Positions 5,561-63,436 of a stretch of DNA of 64,000 nucleotides are shown in pieces. A model generated the notes under the pieces. That model worked only from the letters and a program-made list of their open reading frames with translations, searched no databases and was not told the origin of the DNA. The DNA lies in the NCBI RefSeq assembly GCF_033958435.1, contig NC_134147.1:42154001-42218000 (forward strand), read 5' to 3'. The position numbers were made by a program, and so were the translations under genes. The first letter of the stretch is position 1; each line of letters starts with the position of its first letter. The stretch comes from Carettochelys insculpta. Lineage: Eukaryota > Chordata > Testudines > Carettochelyidae.

Positions 5561-6622
5561 TACAATTAACTGCCATAAAGGAGGGTGCTGAGGATGCAGG
5601 CTCTGTAGACTTGCATTTTGGTGTGAGTGTACAGCTTGTTGTTATTCCACACTCTCTTGCTGAGTCTGGACAGAGTTGTGGCCGCTTTTCCTAATCCTCC
5701 TATTTAGCTCAGTGTCCAACGACAGGGTGTCAGTGATGGTGGACCCGAGGTAAACGAACTCGTGGACAACCTCTAACGTATAGTTGTCAATGCTGATTGA
5801 TGGGGATTCAGCAACATCCTGACCGAGTACATTCGTCTTCTTTAGGCTGATGGTAAGCCCAAAGTCCTTGCATGCTTTGGAGAACCGATCCAGCAGTTTT
5901 TGAAGCTGGTCTTCTGTGTGAGACACTACAGCAGCATCGTCTGCGAACAGCATGTCTCTGATGAGGACTTCTCGCACCTTAGTCTTAGCTTTCAGCCTTG
6001 CAAGGTTAAACAGTTTCCCATCAGATCTTGTGTGCAGCAAGATGCCCTCTGTTGAAGATCCAAAGGCATGCTTCAGGAGGAGTGCGAAGAAGATCCCAAA
6101 CAATGTCGGAGCAAGCACACATCCTTGTTTGACGCCGCTCCTGATTCTGAAAGCATCCGATAATGCGCCGTCATATTGGATGGTTCCTCTCATGTCTTCG
6201 TGGAACGACTGGATCATCTTGAGTAACCGTGGAGGACAGCCTATCTTGTGGAGCAGCTTGAACAGACCATCCCTGCTGACCAAGTCAAAAGCCTTGGTCA
6301 GGTCGATGAAGGCTGTGTAGAGTGGCTTTCTCTGCTCCCTGCACTTCTCCTGCAGCTGCCTTAGAGAGAAGACCATGTCAACGGTAGACCTCTCTGCGCG
6401 AAGTCCGCACTGCGATTCGGGGTACACCCTCTCAGCAATCTTCTGGAGTCTGCCAAGGATGAAGCGAGCGAACAGTTTACCAGTGACGCTTAGGAGGGAG
6501 ATTCCACGGTAGTTGTTGCAGTCGCTCAATGCAGACGCTGTAAATGAAGTCTTCAATTGAAACTTTTAAGGGCGCGATCCATAGTCTATGCAGACTGAAG
6601 GATGACTACTACAATTAACTGC
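5561..6622. mobile_element. Twin-primed (5'-inverted) LINE insertion with target duplication
   Basis: TACAATTAACTGC occurs at 5561-5573 and again at 6610-6622, a perfect 13 bp target duplication. From about 5570 to 6526 the LINE lies antisense; from about 6527 to 6609 the 3' end lies in sense and ends in GGATGACTACTAC. Compared with the longer copy at 26632-30796, the antisense part equals 29228-30184 and the sense part starts near 30713, so about 530 bp are missing at the junction. This is the classic product of twin priming during target-primed reverse transcription. The antisense part shares CTGC with the target at its outer edge, a microhomology suited to second-strand priming. The family is the APE/RT LINE described at 27582. 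Confidence 0.92.
5642..6526 (-). pseudogene. LINE reverse transcriptase fragment (FADD intact)
   Basis: On the minus strand the frame encodes the core of the reverse transcriptase from NNYRGISLLSVTGKLFARFI through FIDLTKAFDLVSRDG (motif A), RSGVKQGCVLAPTLFG (motif B), FADDAAVVSH (motif C, both catalytic Asp present), LKKTNVL and HEFVYLGSTITDT. It lacks the endonuclease and the C-terminus, and its apparent start lies in the inverted junction. It is about 97% identical by eye to the same stretch in the long copy. It cannot make an active protein because it is truncated by the twin-priming event. Confidence 0.9.
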
Positions 6623-21979: not shown

Positions 21980-21990
21980 TTATGCCAATA

Positions 21991-22566
21991 GTAACAGAGA
22001 GAAAGCCGTACTCGTCTATATACTATCAAAACAAAAAAGCAGTCAAGTAGCACTTTAAAGACTAACAAAATAATTTATTAGGTGATGAGCTTTCGTGGGA
22101 CAGACCCACTTCTTCAGATCATAGCCATACCAGAACAGACTCAATATTTAAAGCACAGAGAACCAAAAATAGTAATCAACGTTGACGAATCGGAAAAATT
22201 ATTATCAAGGTGAGCAAATCAGAGAGCAGAGGGACAGAAGGAGGCGGTGAAGTCAAGAATTACATAATGAGCTAGAAAATTATCATCCCAGTTCATTATG
22301 GGGGCTCTTTTACATACTTCACTTAATCTAATTCTTGACTTCCCCCCGTCCTTCTGCCCCTCTGCTCTCTGATTTGCTCACTTTGATAACAATTTTTCTG
22401 CTTGTCAACCTTGATTACTATTTTTGGTTCTCTGTGCCTTACATATTGAGTCTGTTCTGGTATGGCTATGGTCAGAAGAAGTGGGTCTGTCCAATGAAAG
22501 CTCATCACCTAATAAATTGTTTTGTTAGTCTGTAAAGTGCTACTGGACTGCTCTTTTGTTTTGATA
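21991..22566 (-). mobile_element. 576 bp asymmetric foldback element with 11 bp target duplication
   Basis: TTATGCCAATA flanks the element at 21980-21990 and 22567-22577. The arms 22024-22262 and 22329-22566 are inverted copies, separated by about 66 bp. Landmarks in the arms are CAAAACAAAAAAGCAGTC, CACTTTAAAGACTAACAAAA, GGACAGACCCACTTCTTCAG and CAGAGAACCAAAAATAGTAA. The left end carries about 33 bp (GTAACAGAGAGAAAGCCGTA and on) with no partner on the right, so the ends are not terminal inverted repeats. Read on the minus strand it ends in GGCTTTCTCTCTGTTAC. It is non-coding. Confidence 0.92.
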
Positions 22567-22695
22567 TTATGCCAATATTGTGATTCTACAACTCTGAGAC
22601 AAAGTAGGGACTGGCTAACTTAGCTACATTAGGACAGCTCTAATTTTCATTTGACTGCCTTTAGCCCAGAGAAATGCAGAGCTGTTGCAGTTGTT

Positions 22696-23104
22696 GGCCA
22701 TGTCTACACTACAGTGATCTTTCGAAAGGAGCTGTTCTGGAAGATCGTCTCCAAAAGAGCTTCTTTTGAAAGAGAGCGTCCACACACAAAAAAATGGATC
22801 AAAAGAGTGATCTGCTCTTTCCAAAGGGAGCAGCCACACAGCCCCTGCTTTTTCAAAAGAATGGGCCAGGGGATCGAAAATGAAGACTGTCCTTTTGAAA
22901 GAAGGGCCTTACAGAGCGTCTACACACATTTTCTTTCAAAAGAAGCTTTTGAAGGGGGGCGCTTTTCCAGAAATGGGAAAGGAAGATTGATTTCTAAAGG
23001 AGTGCCACATTCTTCCGATTTACTTTCCAAAGAATGCTTTGGGTGTTGATGCTCCATGGGCTCTTTCGAAAGAACCCCCTTCTTTCAAGAAAACTTTCTA
23101 CACA
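22696..23104. mobile_element. Harbinger-like MITE, TTTCGAAAG type
   Basis: The left end is GGCCATGTCTACACTACAG. The body repeats TTTCGAAAG and its decay forms TTTTGAAAG and TTCCAAAG about fifteen times in both orientations. The overall plan (outer modules, then a purine-rich middle) parallels the GTCGAC-type elements, with a different palindrome in the module. The right end stops at AACTTTCTACAC and seems truncated by a few bases. The long plus-strand frame from 22651 is an accident of the repeated GAAAG modules. Confidence 0.78.
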
Positions 23105-26631: not shown

Positions 26632-29600
26632 TAGCCTCTGGGAGTTCGCCAAGGGAGGAGCCCCGTGTTTGTTGTCCTTTTCAGGTATGGTGTTCCACCT
26701 GTGCCCTGCAAGGCAGCACTATCAGGAAAAGGAATCTCTGAAGAGAAGAGCCTGAAGAGCGATGGGGGAAGGTGGACCTGGGGGCACTGAGAGCAGCTGG
26801 GGGGAGAGGGGCCAGTGCAGTGAGGAGGGCAGACATGGGAGCAGATGGGGGTAGTGGGTTCGGGAGGGTCCTATGGTGATGGTAGCTGGGGGGCGCGAAA
26901 AGTGGGGAGGAGGGTCCTGGGGATATGAGGTCATTGCTCCACAGGGAGCTATGGTGACTTGTGGTGACAGGGAGGTATGCAGTAGTGGGGTCCTTAACCA
27001 CATTCTCCACACCCCACTGCCTTGTGGGTTCTCCTGGGAAGGAGAAAGGCTAAGGGAGTAAACCCTGACAGAAAATCTGGAGAGGAGTCCGAAGGCGGTT
27101 CGGTGTCAACTTCTGGCACTGTCCTGGCAACTCCTGCAGCTTAGCTGGTACCAGACGTGGAGGTTATCCTCTCCTTTGGACTGTATCAGTAAAGCCAAGA
27201 GGGGGACACTGGTGTCTGGGCAGCCCAGAGTCTCCATAATAAGTGCCCAGGCTCGTGCCTGGAGAGGTACTCCAGCATCACTGAACAGCGTTGCGTCAAC
27301 ATGGGAGGCAACAGATACCGGTTATAAGCTCTTGCTCGATTGGCGTAGAGAACGAGCGCCAGGGGTTGCCTTCGATGATGGGAGAGATCGTCGCATCTCA
27401 CTGGACAGTCACCGCCCACCTCAAGCTGGGCAGCCCCCAGCCAATAGGGTACTGTCCCACCACAGTTCACCTGCCTCACTGGGTGTGTGAGGCTTAAGGT
27501 TCCTGAACCTGACAAGTGACTGAAATTTGGGCACCAGGAAAACCAATAAGAAAATCAACAAGAAATGAGAAACATCAACAATTTAAGCTTGCTTGCTAGA
27601 ATGTGCGGACCATGCTGACTGGCTTGACTGAAGATTTTCAGGCCATCAGTGACACCCGAAAGACCGCTGTCATCAATGAGGAACTGAAGAGGCTCCGAGT
27701 TGATATCGCTGCACTGCAAGAGACGTGGCTCGCAGATTCGGGATCTCTAAAGGAAAAGGACTACACCTTTTTCTGTCAGGGTAAAGCCCAAGAAGAACCC
27801 AGACAGCATGGTGTTGGCTTTGCTGTCAGAAACACCCTTCTACAAATGGTGGAATTAGTCATGGGCGGATCAGAAAGACTTCTTCAGATCACGCTTCAAA
27901 CTTGCGCCGGTCCCATCCACCTGATCAGCGCTTATGCTCCAACCCTGTACACCACACCAGAAGTAAAAGACAAGTTCTATGACGTGCTTAGTGCTGCTGT
28001 AGCGCAAATACCTGCTCGTGAATAACTGTACATCTTGAGTGACTTCAATGCAAGAGTTGGAGCTGATTGGGCCTCATGGCCTTCCTGCTTAGGACACTTC
28101 GGTGTGGGAAAAATGAATGACAATGGACAGTGTCTCCTTGAACTGTGCACGTACCACAATCTGTGCATCACAAACACCTTCTTCCAAATGAAGCCACAGC
28201 ACAGAGTGTCGTGGAGACACCCACGCTTGAAGCACTGGCATCAACTAGACGTGGTCATCACTAGGCGTAATAACCTCAGGAACGTCCTTCTGACACACAG
28301 CTATCATATTGCTGACTGTGATACAGATCACTCGCTAGTTTGCTCCAAGCTCAAGCTGAGACCCAAGAAGCTGTACCACTCTAAACCTGCTGGAAGGCCC
28401 CTCATTGAAGCCAGAAAGACGGCAAACTCGGAGAAAGCTGAAAAGTTCAGAGAGACCCTCCAGGAAAATCTGCGCAGCGGCCCTGGGGGTGCCGATGTGA
28501 CATCCAAATGGCAACATCTGAGGGATACAGTTTACAACACGACCTTGTTGGTGTTTGGAAGAAGAGCTAGAAACACGAACGACTGGTTCGAAGCTAACTC
28601 CGATGAGATGATTCCAGTCATTGAAAAGAAGTGCGCTGCACTCCTGTGGTACAAACGCTCACCGAGCCAGAGTACCCAGCAAGCACTTAGAGAGGCCAGA
28701 AGAACAGTACAGCAGACAGCCAGGCGCTGTGCCAACAACCACTGGCTCCAGCTATGCAGCAGCATCCAGACCTGTGCTGACTTTGGTAATCTCAGAGGAA
28801 TGTACGAGGGTATGAAGAAGGCATTAGGACCCACCCAGAACAAGATGGCACCTCTGAAATCCAAATCTGGTGAAGTCATTGCTGACAAAGCCAAACAGAT
28901 GGAGCCCTGGGTTGAGCACTACTCCGAGCTGTACTCACGTGAGAACATTGTGGTTGACGCAGCCCTCGATGCTGTCGAGCTCCCACCAGTAATGGACGAA
29001 CTGGATCAAGAACCGACTGCAGATGAACTGAAGAGAGCCATCGACAGCACTGCAGCAGGAAAGGCCCCTGGTCAGGATGGTATGCCACCAGAGGTAATCA
29101 AGTGTGCCGCAGACACACTCCTGGAACCCCTACATGAGCTACTGTGCCTGTGCTGGAAAGAGGGTGAGGTTCCACAGGATATGCGCGACGCTAACATTGT
29201 AACGTTGTATAAGAACAAAGGAGACAGAAGCGACGGCAACAACTACTGTGGAATCTCCCTCCTAAGTGTCACTGGTAAACTGTTCACTCGCGTCATCCTT
29301 GGCAGACTCCAGAAGATTGCTGAGAGGGTGTACCCCGAATCGCAGTGTGGGTTCCATGCAGAGAATTCTACCGTTGACATGGTCTTCTCTCTAAGGCAGC
29401 TGCAGGAGAAGTGCAGGGAGCAGAGAAAGCCACTCTACATAGCCTTCATCGACTTGACCAAGGCCTTCGACTTGGTCAGCAGGGATGCTCTGGTCAAACT
29501 GCTCCACAAGATAGGCTGTCCTCTACGGTTACTCAAGATGATCCAGTCATTCCACGAAGACACGAGAGGAACCATCCAATATGACGGCGCATTATCGGAT

Positions 29601-30796
29601 GCTTTCAGAATCAGGAGCGGTGTCAAACAAGGATGCGTGCTTGCTCCAACATTGTTTGGGATCTTCTTCGCACTCCTCCTGAAGCATGCCTTTGGATCTT
29701 CAACAGAGGGCATCTTGCTGCACACAAGATTGAATGGGAAACTGTTCAACCTTGCAAGGCTGAAAGCTAAGTCTAAGGTGCGGGAAGTCCTCATCAGAGA
29801 CATGCTGTTCGCAGATGCTGCTGCTGTAGTGTCTCACACAGAAGACCAGCTTCAAAAACTGCTGGATCAGTTCTCCAAAGCGTGCAAGGACTTTGGGCTT
29901 ACCATCAGCCTGAAGAAGACAAACGTACTCGGTCAGGATGTTGCTGAATCCCCATCAATCAGCACTGACAACTATACGTTAGAGGTCGTCCACGAGTTCG
30001 TGTACCTCGGGTCCACCATCACTGACACCCAATCGTTGGACACTGAGCGAAATAGGAGGATTAGAAAAGCGGCCACAACTCTGTCCAGACTCAGCAAGAG
30101 AGTGTGGAATAACCACAAGCTGTACACTCACACCAAAATGCAAGTCTACAGAGCCTGCATCCTCAGCACCCTCCTTTATGGCAGCGAGACTTGGACCCTG
30201 TATGCCCGTCAGGAAAAGAGGCTGAACGTCTTCCACTTGCGCTGCCTCAGGTGCATCCTTGGAATATCATGGAAGGACAAAGTGACCAACACCGCCGTCC
30301 TCGAGCAAGCTGGAATCCCAACCATGCACACCCTCCTCAGGCAGCGTCGGCTCCGCTGGCTTGGCCACGTCCACAGGATGAATGATGGAAGGATTCCAAA
30401 AGACATCCTGTATGGTGACCTAGCCTCTGGCAAAAGACCTCCCGGATGCCCCGAGTTGGGCTACAAAGATGTCCGCAAGAGAGACCTCAGAGAGGTAGAC
30501 ATCGAGCTGGACGACTGGGAAGAACTAGCAGACGACCGCAGCAGATGGAGGCAGGGGTTACACAAGGGCCTTCAGAAGGGCCAGATGAGGATCAGACAGC
30601 TAGCAGAGGAGAAGCGAGAGCACAGAAAGCACACTAAGGACTTGCCAGACGCCCACCACATCTGCAAGAGATGCAGCAAGGACTGTCATTCTCGTGTGGG
30701 TCTTCATAGTCACAGTAGACGCTGTAAATGAAGTCTTCAATTGAAACTATAAAGGGCGTGATCCATAGTCTATGCAGACTGAAGGATGCCTACTAC
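26632..30796 (+). mobile_element. Nearly complete APE/RT LINE with 13 bp target duplication
   Basis: TCCTCATGGGGGT is found at 26619-26631 and at 30797-30809, which sets the insertion at about 4.17 kb. It has a long 5' untranslated part, one long ORF (27582-30731) and a short 3'UTR that ends in GGATGCCTACTAC without a poly(A) tail. The 3' end agrees with the twin-primed copy at 6609. The single-ORF plan with APE then RT is that of RTE-like and some related clades, but a C-terminal C2HC finger is unusual for RTE, so I leave the clade open. The left duplication is slightly less certain because it is G-rich. Confidence 0.88.
27582..30731 (+). pseudogene. LINE ORF: APE endonuclease, reverse transcriptase, C2HC finger (inactivated)
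   Basis: One reading frame of about 1,050 codons. The N-terminal APE endonuclease shows NVRTML, ALQETW, ISAYAPT, SDFNARVG, HQLDVVITRR and TDHSLV. The reverse transcriptase follows with GKAPGQDGMPPEVIK, FIDLTKAFDLVSRDA (motif A), RSGVKQGCVLAPTLFG (motif B), FADAAAVVSH (motif C) and LRWLGHVHRM. The C-terminus has C-x2-C-x12-H-x3-C in CKRCSKDCHSRVGLHSHSRRC. The frame is broken by TAG at 27597-27599, where Trp of the WNVRT motif is expected, and by TAA at 28023-28025, just before the DFN motif. Motif C reads FADA because codon 29817-29819 is GCT, so the second catalytic Asp is lost. Downstream of the second stop 898 codons remain open. In turtles and lizards such frames are often misnamed as craniofacial development protein 2-like. 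Confidence 0.93.
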
Positions 30797-39719: not shown

Positions 39720-40357
39720 AGTATAGTTATCCTCCCAGGACTTTTGTTGAAAAGTCCTGTTATCTGCTACTACTTCCTTTGCTTCTCTCCAGGTTCTGCA
39801 CCAAAAAAGCCTTCTATTATCCCAAGATTTTAAAGAAGCCATGACTTGAAGCCTGTTCATAAAGAGAACCAGATGAGCAGACAGCACCTTTGGCAAACCT
39901 TTTTTAAAGGCTTTTCTCCTTTCAGGAATCTCTGTATGGGAAACAACACTGGTTCTGCTGCCTGATTGACCTTACAAGTCTGAAACCCAAGAAGGAATCA
40001 AGGTTGTGGCTAAAACAATGTTATTGGTTAAACTAAGATCATGATATCAAGACATGACAGGGCTGATTTAACATTAATACAGCTGTGGTGTGTATGCTGT
40101 GAAATAGAGAATGCTGTATGAAGTTCTGATAATAGAAGAGTCTTTAGCCACACATGTGATTTCATGTACGCAAATGTATATCAACAGTCATCTTGGAAAA
40201 TCAAGCACACCTCATACACTTGTTGTAAATTTGCTGGATGGTGCATGCTGATGTTGTCCTAAATAGCTAACATCAGACAGGACCCCCTCATTGGTGCATA
40301 TTAAAAATGAGGTGCATATAGTAAATTTAATCTGCATGAACAAACACTGTAAGGATA
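39720..40357. other. No gene or repeat recognised
   Basis: AT-rich DNA with no frame or bounded repeat that I can identify. Confidence 0.45.
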
Positions 40358-40585
40358 CAAAACAAAAAAGCAGTCATGTAGCACTTTAAAGACTAACAAA
40401 ATAATTTATTAATATTATGAAATAATAAAAATACAATAATTTATTAATTTCCAGATCTGAAGAAGTGGGTCTGTCCCCTGGAAGCTCATCACCAAATAAA
40501 TTATTGTGTTAGTCTCTAAGTGCTACATGGCTGCATTTTTTGTTTTGTGAAGATACAGAGTAACATGGCTACCTCTCTGTGACTA
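40358..40585 (+). mobile_element. Foldback repeat with partly lost left arm
   Basis: The right half reads CTGAAGAAGTGGGTCTGTCC, CTCATCACCAAATAAATTAT and TGTTAGTCTCTAAGTGCTAC, and ends GAAGATACAGAGTAACATGG then CTACCTCTCTGTGAC. The left half keeps CAAAACAAAAAAGCAGTCAT and GCACTTTAAAGACTAACAAA, then loses its inner part to a short AT-rich run with a repeated AATAATTTATTAAT. TAAGGATA at 40350-40357 and 40586-40593 looks like an 8 bp target duplication. Confidence 0.82.
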
Positions 40586-40593
40586 TAAGGATA

Positions 40594-59122: not shown

Positions 59123-59215
59123 ACACTGGTCTGAAGAAGTGGGTCTTTCCCACAAAAGCTCACCTAATAAATTATTTTGTTAGTCTTTAAAGTGCTACTT
59201 GACTGCTTTTTTGTG
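59123..59215 (+). mobile_element. Solo half of a foldback repeat
   Basis: GGTCTGAAGAAGTGGGTCTT, CCCACAAAAGCTCACCTAA, TTATTTTGTTAGTCTTTAAA and GTGCTACTTGACTGCTTTTT follow in the order of the right arms at 22.5 and 40.5 kb. There is no partner arm. It lies only about 45 bp before the complete foldback copy. Confidence 0.78.
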
Positions 59216-59259
59216 TTGCTATTCTTTGTTTAAAAAAAGCCAATTTCTCAGGAAAAGGT

Positions 59260-59496
59260 AACAGAGAGGAAGCCGTGCCAATCTGTACACTATCAAAACA
59301 AAAAGCAGTCAAGTAGCACTTTAAAGACTAGCAAAATAGTTTATTAGGTGAGCTTTCGTGGGACAGACCCACTTCTTCAGACCAGAGTCTGTTCTGGTCT
59401 GGCTGTGGTCTGAAGAAGTGGGTCTGTCCCACAAAAGCTCGCCTAATAAACTATTTTGCTAGTCTTTAAAGTGCTACTTGGCTGCTTTTTGTTTTG
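59260..59496 (-). mobile_element. Compact foldback element with 10-12 bp target duplication
   Basis: TCAGGAAAAGGT lies at 59248-59259 and at 59497-59508. The arms, 59291-59382 and 59408-59496 or so, differ at only a few positions and meet around GTCTGTTCTGGTCTGGC. The left end again carries an unpaired extension, AACAGAGAGGAAGCCGTGCC, matching the 22.0 kb copy. Both arms share AGACTAGCAAAATAGTTTAT where all other copies here read AACAAAATAATTT. It is non-coding. Confidence 0.92.
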
Positions 59497-59508
59497 TCAG
59501 GAAAAGGT

Positions 59509-63004: not shown

Positions 63005-63123
63005 GCTGAAATTGGGTCTTTGTCCATGAAAGCGTGTGCATCAATAAATCTGTTAGTCTATAAGGTGCCACAGGACTTCTTGTTGTTTTTGAAGAAACAG
63101 ACTAACATGGCTACCCCTCTCAT
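63005..63123 (+). mobile_element. Foldback-type repeat, right half
   Basis: The stretch reads GAAATTGGGTCTTTGTCCAT, CATCAATAAATCTGTTAGTC, TATAAGGTGCCACAGGACTT and CAGACTAACATGGCTACCCC followed by TCTCATAC. It is the sister form of the 40.5 kb copy and has the same end as the repeat around 34.65 kb. It touches the next MITE directly. Confidence 0.75.
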
Positions 63124-63436
63124 ACCTCTCTAATACGGAACTTTCTGATCTGGCAACATCCATAATCCAGCATGATTTTAGTAAAATGGATGACCAATTA
63201 TCATAGCTGTGACCAAGATTCCCGTATTTCCATGAAGTTTGTTTACAGCCACCAGTCCTGACTCAGTGTTCTGTGCTGTTATTTAGCCATAATTTATCCT
63301 TCCATGTCTTCTAAAAGCCCAATAAGCAGACAAAGTATTGGTTATGCTGCTAGACCACACTGACCTCCTGTGGTCTGAAAAATTGTCTCACCTGGAATTG
63401 GTCAGGTCCTGAGGGTGCCAGATCAACCTTCAATTC
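63124..63436. mobile_element. Pogo/mariner-like MITE, decayed copy
   Basis: Starting at CTCTCTAATACGG, the stretch continues GGCAACATCCATAATCCAGC, GTTTACAGCCACCAGTCCTG, TGTCTTCTAAAAGCCCAATA and AGGGTGCCAGATCAACCTTC. It follows the 48.5 kb copy along its length with more substitutions. The terminal CAGGTTGAAC is missing on the left. Confidence 0.82.

Follow-up and report, generated by a model that had tools for sequence, protein, structure and literature searches.

The published systems that most resemble the repeats described here are Penelope-like elements (PLEs), which have been called enigmatic (PMC3846280) and about whose transposition mechanism relatively little is known (PMC11167929). 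In the accessible text on the Penelope elements of Adineta vaga (e.g. Pen2a_Av), the pseudo-LTRs (pLTRs) are inverted and mostly head-to-head, with palindromes at the inverted junctions, an optional 31-bp "tail" that one inverted pLTR bears at its 3′ end, and duplications of 8, 9, and 10 bp (PMC3846280). For Poseidon_Ac/PAc of the green anole, the available portions describe an ORF with GIY-YIG nuclease and reverse transcriptase (RT) and a preference for AT-rich targets; in vitro, the Anolis PLE cleaves both strands of the target and extends each of them, and reverse transcription begins at two neighboring internal positions close to the ORF start, a 30–40 nt tail being the stretch between them, with no strand difference in the choice of start site (PMC11167929).

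We analyzed a window of 64,000 nt from the turtle Carettochelys insculpta and verified three foldbacks, at 22.0, 40.4, and 59.3 kb. Each carries an extension of ~33–34 nt on one side only, with the terminus GTTAC or GTGAC, as expected from a first-pass annotation that had reported three copies with unequal ends. The foldbacks resemble the Adineta vaga elements, as far as these are described in the accessible text, in their inverted head-to-head pLTRs, one-sided tail, and short duplications; in contrast to the Adineta examples, which hold ORFs or captured DNA between the pLTRs, they are compact and lack an ORF. They resemble Poseidon_Ac/PAc, within the available portions of that report, in the GIY-YIG and RT ORF of their relatives, in AT-rich targets, and in two start zones bounding the tail, but the evidence there comes mostly from in vitro products, and those portions contain no genomic foldback-only copies with duplications of the kind seen here. 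The first-pass annotation had proposed an undescribed mode of mobilization; since the parts of two reports open to us (PMC3846280, PMC11167929) already describe PLEs with inverted pLTRs, an optional 30–40 bp tail, and short duplications of the target, the mode is not wholly undescribed. The foldbacks are real and are accounted for by a known element class, and the new contribution is a data set relevant to PLE integration. The features in the window are as follows.

21980–21990, unstranded: copy 1, left target site duplication, TTATGCCAATA, an exact 11-bp direct repeat
21991–22024, minus strand: copy 1, tail, one-sided extension of ~34 nt, reading ...CTCTCTGTTAC on the sense strand
22025–22289, minus strand: copy 1, tail-bearing antisense arm (PLE 3′ end/pLTR), inner boundary approximate
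22117, minus strand: copy 1, hammerhead-like core within the antisense arm
22290–22566, plus strand: copy 1, sense arm without tail, inner boundary approximate
22567–22577, unstranded: copy 1, right target site duplication
40346–40357, unstranded: copy 2, left target site duplication, 12 bp with one mismatch, at most 2 nt possibly belonging to the element
40358–40411, minus strand: copy 2, antisense arm without tail
40454–40583, plus strand: copy 2, sense arm and tail, terminus GTGAC
40582–40593, unstranded: copy 2, right target site duplication
59127–59221, plus strand: single-arm fragment of the same pLTR beside copy 3
59248–59259, unstranded: copy 3, left target site duplication, TCAGGAAAAGGT, final 2 nt ambiguous
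59258–59291, minus strand: copy 3, tail
59292–59394, minus strand: copy 3, tail-bearing antisense arm, inner boundary approximate
59380, minus strand: copy 3, hammerhead-like core within the antisense arm
59395–59496, plus strand: copy 3, sense arm without tail, inner boundary approximate
59497–59508, unstranded: copy 3, right target site duplication
63007–63125, plus strand: related pLTR, present as one older and diverged copy whose end is tail-like (matching segments 63040–63092 and 63109–63125; start placed by eye)

A chance origin of these repeats was rejected: the window contains six occurrences of an 18-nt arm motif, where 0.03 would be expected. Two other stretches of the window were noted in passing, a further repeat-like sequence beside copy 1 (22690–22900, GGCCATGTCTACACTACAG...) and a set of overlapping open frames at 160–502, on both strands, whose similar translations hint at a further palindromic repeat.

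The genome was sampled over 2.18 Gb. With copy 1 as query, 83 matches were obtained in 40 scored places (the best 40 of 8400 first-look candidates); with the core of copy 3, lacking the tail, there were 80 matches in the best 40 places of 1159 first-look candidates, and neighborhoods were retrieved for the other 39 places of each list. Compact foldbacks without an ORF occupy 27 of the 40 places in the copy 1 list, the remaining 13 (L035–L047) showing a one-arm match at the site, and all 40 places in the copy 3 core list, the queries being foldbacks themselves. The 27 copy 1 places, window copies 2 and 3, and the 39 other places of the copy 3 core list give 68 scored foldbacks; L002–L008, the same places sampled again, were left out of the counts. 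All 68 have the head-to-head pLTR layout, a rate biased by queries that are themselves head-to-head.

It is as good as certain that the foldbacks are the product of a PLE. They are non-autonomous, 5′-truncated PLE insertions in which two PLE 3′ ends are joined head-to-head. The sense arm of copy 1 runs from the end of the PLE reading frame into the pLTR, and the arms of the longer foldbacks contain the tip of the ORF, then the 3′UTR, then the pLTR. At 7 of the 13 single-arm places (L035, L036, L037, L039, L042, L043, and L045, with L043 being the reference itself), the tail arm continues upstream into a common PLE body for more than 500 nt, and up to ~2 kb, while at the others the continuation stops at −298 to −357. 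The upstream body of L039 holds RT and GIY-YIG-like pieces in broken frames, of which the last ends ...FALSNS-stop where the foldback arm starts; these pieces are 52% (nuclease end) and 69% (RT) identical to L054, and their Pfam matches (RVT_1, 2.5e-4; GIY-YIG, 0.046) are both under the cut-offs. RT and GIY-YIG nuclease are found in one ORF in L054 and L060, relatives from another subfamily than the foldbacks, with frames of 607 and 601 aa and matches above the Pfam cut-offs to RVT_1 (9.1e-12 and 1.1e-10) and GIY-YIG (2.5e-6 and 3.4e-6). The wider stretch around L060 (L079) has the order direct pLTR, ORF, direct pLTR, with pLTRs of 182 bp that are 95% identical to each other, and 73% identical to the foldback unit over unit positions 172–300 (80% over 172–244); L078 has direct pLTRs of 127 bp that are 98% identical. 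The continuation of the arm into a PLE-type ORF, together with the pLTR-ORF-pLTR layout of L079, identifies the source as a Penelope-like element.

No intact copy of the foldbacks' own subfamily was seen in a nuclease search covering the best 150 of 3795 candidates. CPB is the code of the painted turtle. Penelope-2_CPB, named as a PLE in the accessible part of one report (PMC9004415), is a PLE assigned to a turtle and so a natural candidate relative. Rfam "miRNA" matches to the foldbacks were under the gathering scores and were taken for hairpin artefacts; pattern scans of viral contigs and genome contigs gave no matches.

The extra ~34 nt are present on exactly one arm in 66 of the 68 foldbacks, on both arms in L101 and on neither in L028, and the latter two were omitted from the arm-length and duplication counts. 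The copy 1 query did include the tail; the copy 3 core query did not, so the tail result in its list is not derived from the query. Tail-bearing arms end between −4 and +15 relative to GTTAC in 53/53 copies. Arms without the tail end between −32 and −47 in 45/53; the other eight were not placed, and among these at least one, L027, ends further inside than −47. Several copies carry TATTC or TATTCAACAT beyond GTTAC and before the duplication, a continuation resembling template sequence that extends as far as an ATG, and in L078 and L079 an ATG, which we infer to be the ORF start, closely follows the position matching the tail end. The two-tailed foldback L101 (G000:C29 near 7591574) has flanks that are mutual reverse complements, indicating either a larger palindrome or an assembly fault.

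The duplications of the window copies had been given as 11, 8, and 12 bp. That of copy 1 is an exact 11-bp repeat, TTATGCCAATA, of which 4 nt are possibly element sequence, and that of copy 3 is exact over 12 bp, TCAGGAAAAGGT, or 10–12 bp as GT is possibly the element's; the value for copy 2 had to be revised, its 8 bp being a stretch that stops at a mismatch within a full repeat, ACTGTAAGGATA/ACTATAAGGATA, that is 11/12 identical (40346–40357/40582–40593). The window copies alone therefore show no length variation, and a uniform length is compatible with them (11 bp; 12 bp with one mismatch; 10–12 bp). The variable length that had been claimed for this family is instead demonstrated by the genome sample. 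With a cut-off at a direct repeat score of at least 9, 53 of the 66 one-tail copies have a duplication, compared with 0.15% of 1304 swapped-flank control pairings. The longest repeat in these 53 measures 9–16 bp (mean 12.3, sd 1.7; exact repeats 9–15 bp), or 4–13 bp (mean 9.0, sd 1.9) when nucleotides possibly belonging to the element are subtracted, and unambiguous lengths of 9 (L105), 10 (L026), and 11 bp (L020 and L116) rule out a single fixed length. Among the 13 copies below the cut-off, five (L030, window copy 2, L100, L102, and L113) have an 11–12 bp repeat with one mismatch, L012 has an exact 8-bp repeat, and L110 has an exact 10-bp repeat missed by the scoring, while L015, L016, L021, L022, L032, and L033 showed no convincing flanking repeat in this scoring. 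The duplications are AT-rich (GC 34.5%, against 42.6% for the window).

We propose that the foldbacks probably form by priming on both sides of the target cut. The PLE protein, with its RT and GIY-YIG nuclease, would cut both target strands with a stagger of ~9–15 nt, or less if the ambiguous nucleotides are element sequence, and the free 3′ ends on both sides would serve as primers for copying PLE RNA into cDNA from internal start sites. One of the two syntheses would start just upstream of the ORF start and leave the tail; the other would mostly start 32–47 nt further in and leave none. Both cDNAs would be antisense and would grow towards one another, joining at their far ends, perhaps via a few complementary nucleotides, with repair filling in. 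LINE-1 twin priming, in which both target strands prime cDNA synthesis and an inversion junction results, is a related process, but its product is one copy with an inverted 5′ part, whereas the foldbacks consist of two 3′-end copies. No study of pLTR-only foldbacks in reptiles or of twin priming in Penelope was found among titles and abstract openings, which leave most of the subscription literature uncovered.

A broader form of the proposal, for and against which we are evenly poised, is that PLE insertion in this genome is typically primed from two sides with a division of labor, one start at the tail site and the other ~35–40 nt inside, such that each insertion is a head-to-head pair, some derived from two RNAs. 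If correct, this reading would account jointly for the inverted pLTRs and the one-sided tail, and foldback-only copies would be the normal short product of PLE integration, with no need for a special element. The Anolis finding of no strand difference counts against double priming, as the occurrence of one start site of each kind per insertion here is left unaccounted for. The model is concrete and testable with purified PLE enzyme, and the many short foldbacks with readable duplications make PLE integration countable with respect to the longer arm, the arm ends, and template sharing.

Of the 13 single-arm places, L037, L044, L045, and L047 are head-to-head with arms up to ~1.3 kb and duplications of 12, 11, 12, and 17 bp, with one mismatch each in L044 and L047; L043 is head-to-head and extends off the retrieved piece; L046 has an antisense body piece and lacks a clear duplication. 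For the remaining seven (L035, L036, and L038–L042), the duplications are unconvincing, scoring 8 at best, and the 3 kb retrieved contain no full partner; L042 has an inverted piece of 73 nt at the far end. These seven count against two-sided priming as the best explanation.

The principal alternative, which we consider doubtful, is that a single target-primed cDNA (or antisense RNA) folds back and primes its own second arm, so that each foldback derives from one molecule; self-priming on an antisense template has been put forward for rotifer Penelope in the accessible text (PMC3846280). A tail-primed strand that snaps back predicts that the tail arm is always the longer one, and one fixed polarity would be expected from the route through an antisense template as well. 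Both polarities are seen. Among the one-tail copies, the arm without the tail is longer in 37/66, the tail arm in 18/66, and 11/66 were not resolved, counts that are not independent for the short class, where centers recur; in the long class, the numbers are 13 and 7 (9 and 6 for copies with a duplication). That either arm may be longer is unlike simple snapback and supports double priming, and the arm counts thus disfavor a single-molecule origin, which also leaves the stop of the second arm 32–47 nt short unexplained. In support of a single molecule, one arm accounts for the loop in 54/55 copies.

Comparison of the two arms provides evidence on both sides. Arms are more alike within copies than between them (0.913 versus 0.873 in the long class and 0.967 versus 0.961 in the short class, window copy 2 being assigned to neither class here or in the analysis of allele discordance), and an arm's own partner is its best match in 9/26 long and 4/39 short copies. 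In 23 short copies a diagnostic triplet can be read on each of the two arms; it agrees in 16, against 11.1 by random pairing, with 1% of shuffles as high, and in 5/20 long copies with a duplication the arms differ at no more than one informative site. Likeness of arms, triplet agreement, and near-identical arms are as from a single-molecule origin and so argue against double priming. Conversely, the arms carry different common alleles of the triplet in 7/23, which is difficult to reconcile with snapback. For shared non-CpG alleles, discordance within copies is 0.167 in the short class (background 0.021, between copies 0.277; only three sites) and 0.152 in the long class (background 0.063, between copies 0.418; 21 sites). 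This analysis also omits L015, L016, L021, L022, L032, and L033, which have no duplication, and L110, which was unscored for duplication. Within-copy discordance lies between the background and between-copy values, consistent with some foldbacks having one template and others two; the implied share of mixed-template pairs, likewise contrary to snapback, is 0.57 in the short class, based on only three sites, and 0.25 in the long class, based on 21. Later mutation and gene conversion may be other sources of arm discordance. L022, considered as an extreme two-template chimera, was dropped because it has no duplication and its flank resembles the PLE body.

Less probable again, in our assessment improbable, is that some foldbacks are themselves transcribed into hairpin RNAs, which the PLE enzyme then inserts in full, the center junctions being inherited. 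The short copies provide some grounds for it: 29 of 39 fall into five center types, and nearest neighbors share a center type in 10.0/29 cases against 5.5 when shuffled (76/2000 shuffles as high). This weak tracking of sequence relationship by center type fits the copying of ready-made foldbacks and speaks against double priming. The association becomes weak when orientation is ignored (286/2000 shuffles), however, and a given center can face either way with respect to the tail (9 and 6 for A/a, 6 and 4 for B/b). Long-class centers, by inspection, vary from copy to copy. The earlier suggestion of a hairpin RNA template is not required and does not suit the long copies, whose centers differ; it may apply to the short class. 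Many short copies (L081–L119) have, by inspection, a longer arm ending near one point, AGAGTCTG, as if the 5′ end of the template RNA were fixed there.

Target-primed retroposition, the first guess of the first-pass annotation, is supported. Its proposed driver, a LINE with a 3′ end matching the tail, would imply a SINE-like hairpin RNA moved by that LINE, for which there are the target-primed appearance of the copies and a LINE-like frame with an RT match in the window (28026–30731, plus strand, 901 aa, strong RVT_1 match). This is very improbable, since the pLTR belongs to the PLE and the tail, compared with the 1.3 kb after that frame, the one LINE examined, gives a best ungapped match of 18/34, as in shuffles (mean 17.5, maximum 21). 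A similar 307-aa fragment, also with an RVT_1 match, lies at 5642–6565 on the minus strand.

Long inverted repeats with duplications of ~9–12 bp, as seen here, occur in MULE or Foldback-like elements, but a DNA transposon with long terminal inverted repeats, the other option that had been raised, has next to no probability, because the inverted repeats fail to reach both ends (the ~34 nt being absent from one arm in 66 of 68 foldbacks), the duplication length is not fixed, arm lengths and centers vary, and the arms correspond to the 3′ end of an element that encodes RT and GIY-YIG.

PLEs carry minimal hammerheads, according to the available text of two reports (PMC6155905, PMC7229834). In the searched repeat sequences, Rfam gave no match to a hammerhead family, and the folding of three single-arm RNAs did not stand out from that of shuffled sequences (z of 0.08, −0.74, and 0.01). 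A pattern of CTGANGA, a paired stem II, and GAAA has 99 occurrences, spread over 60 of 81 loci, all chosen for carrying the repeat, against one occurrence in 20 mononucleotide shuffles of the window, and always with one extra nucleotide before stem II. Stem II shows a paired change, with GTGGG/CCCAC in the foldbacks versus GTGAG/CTCAC in L078 and L079.
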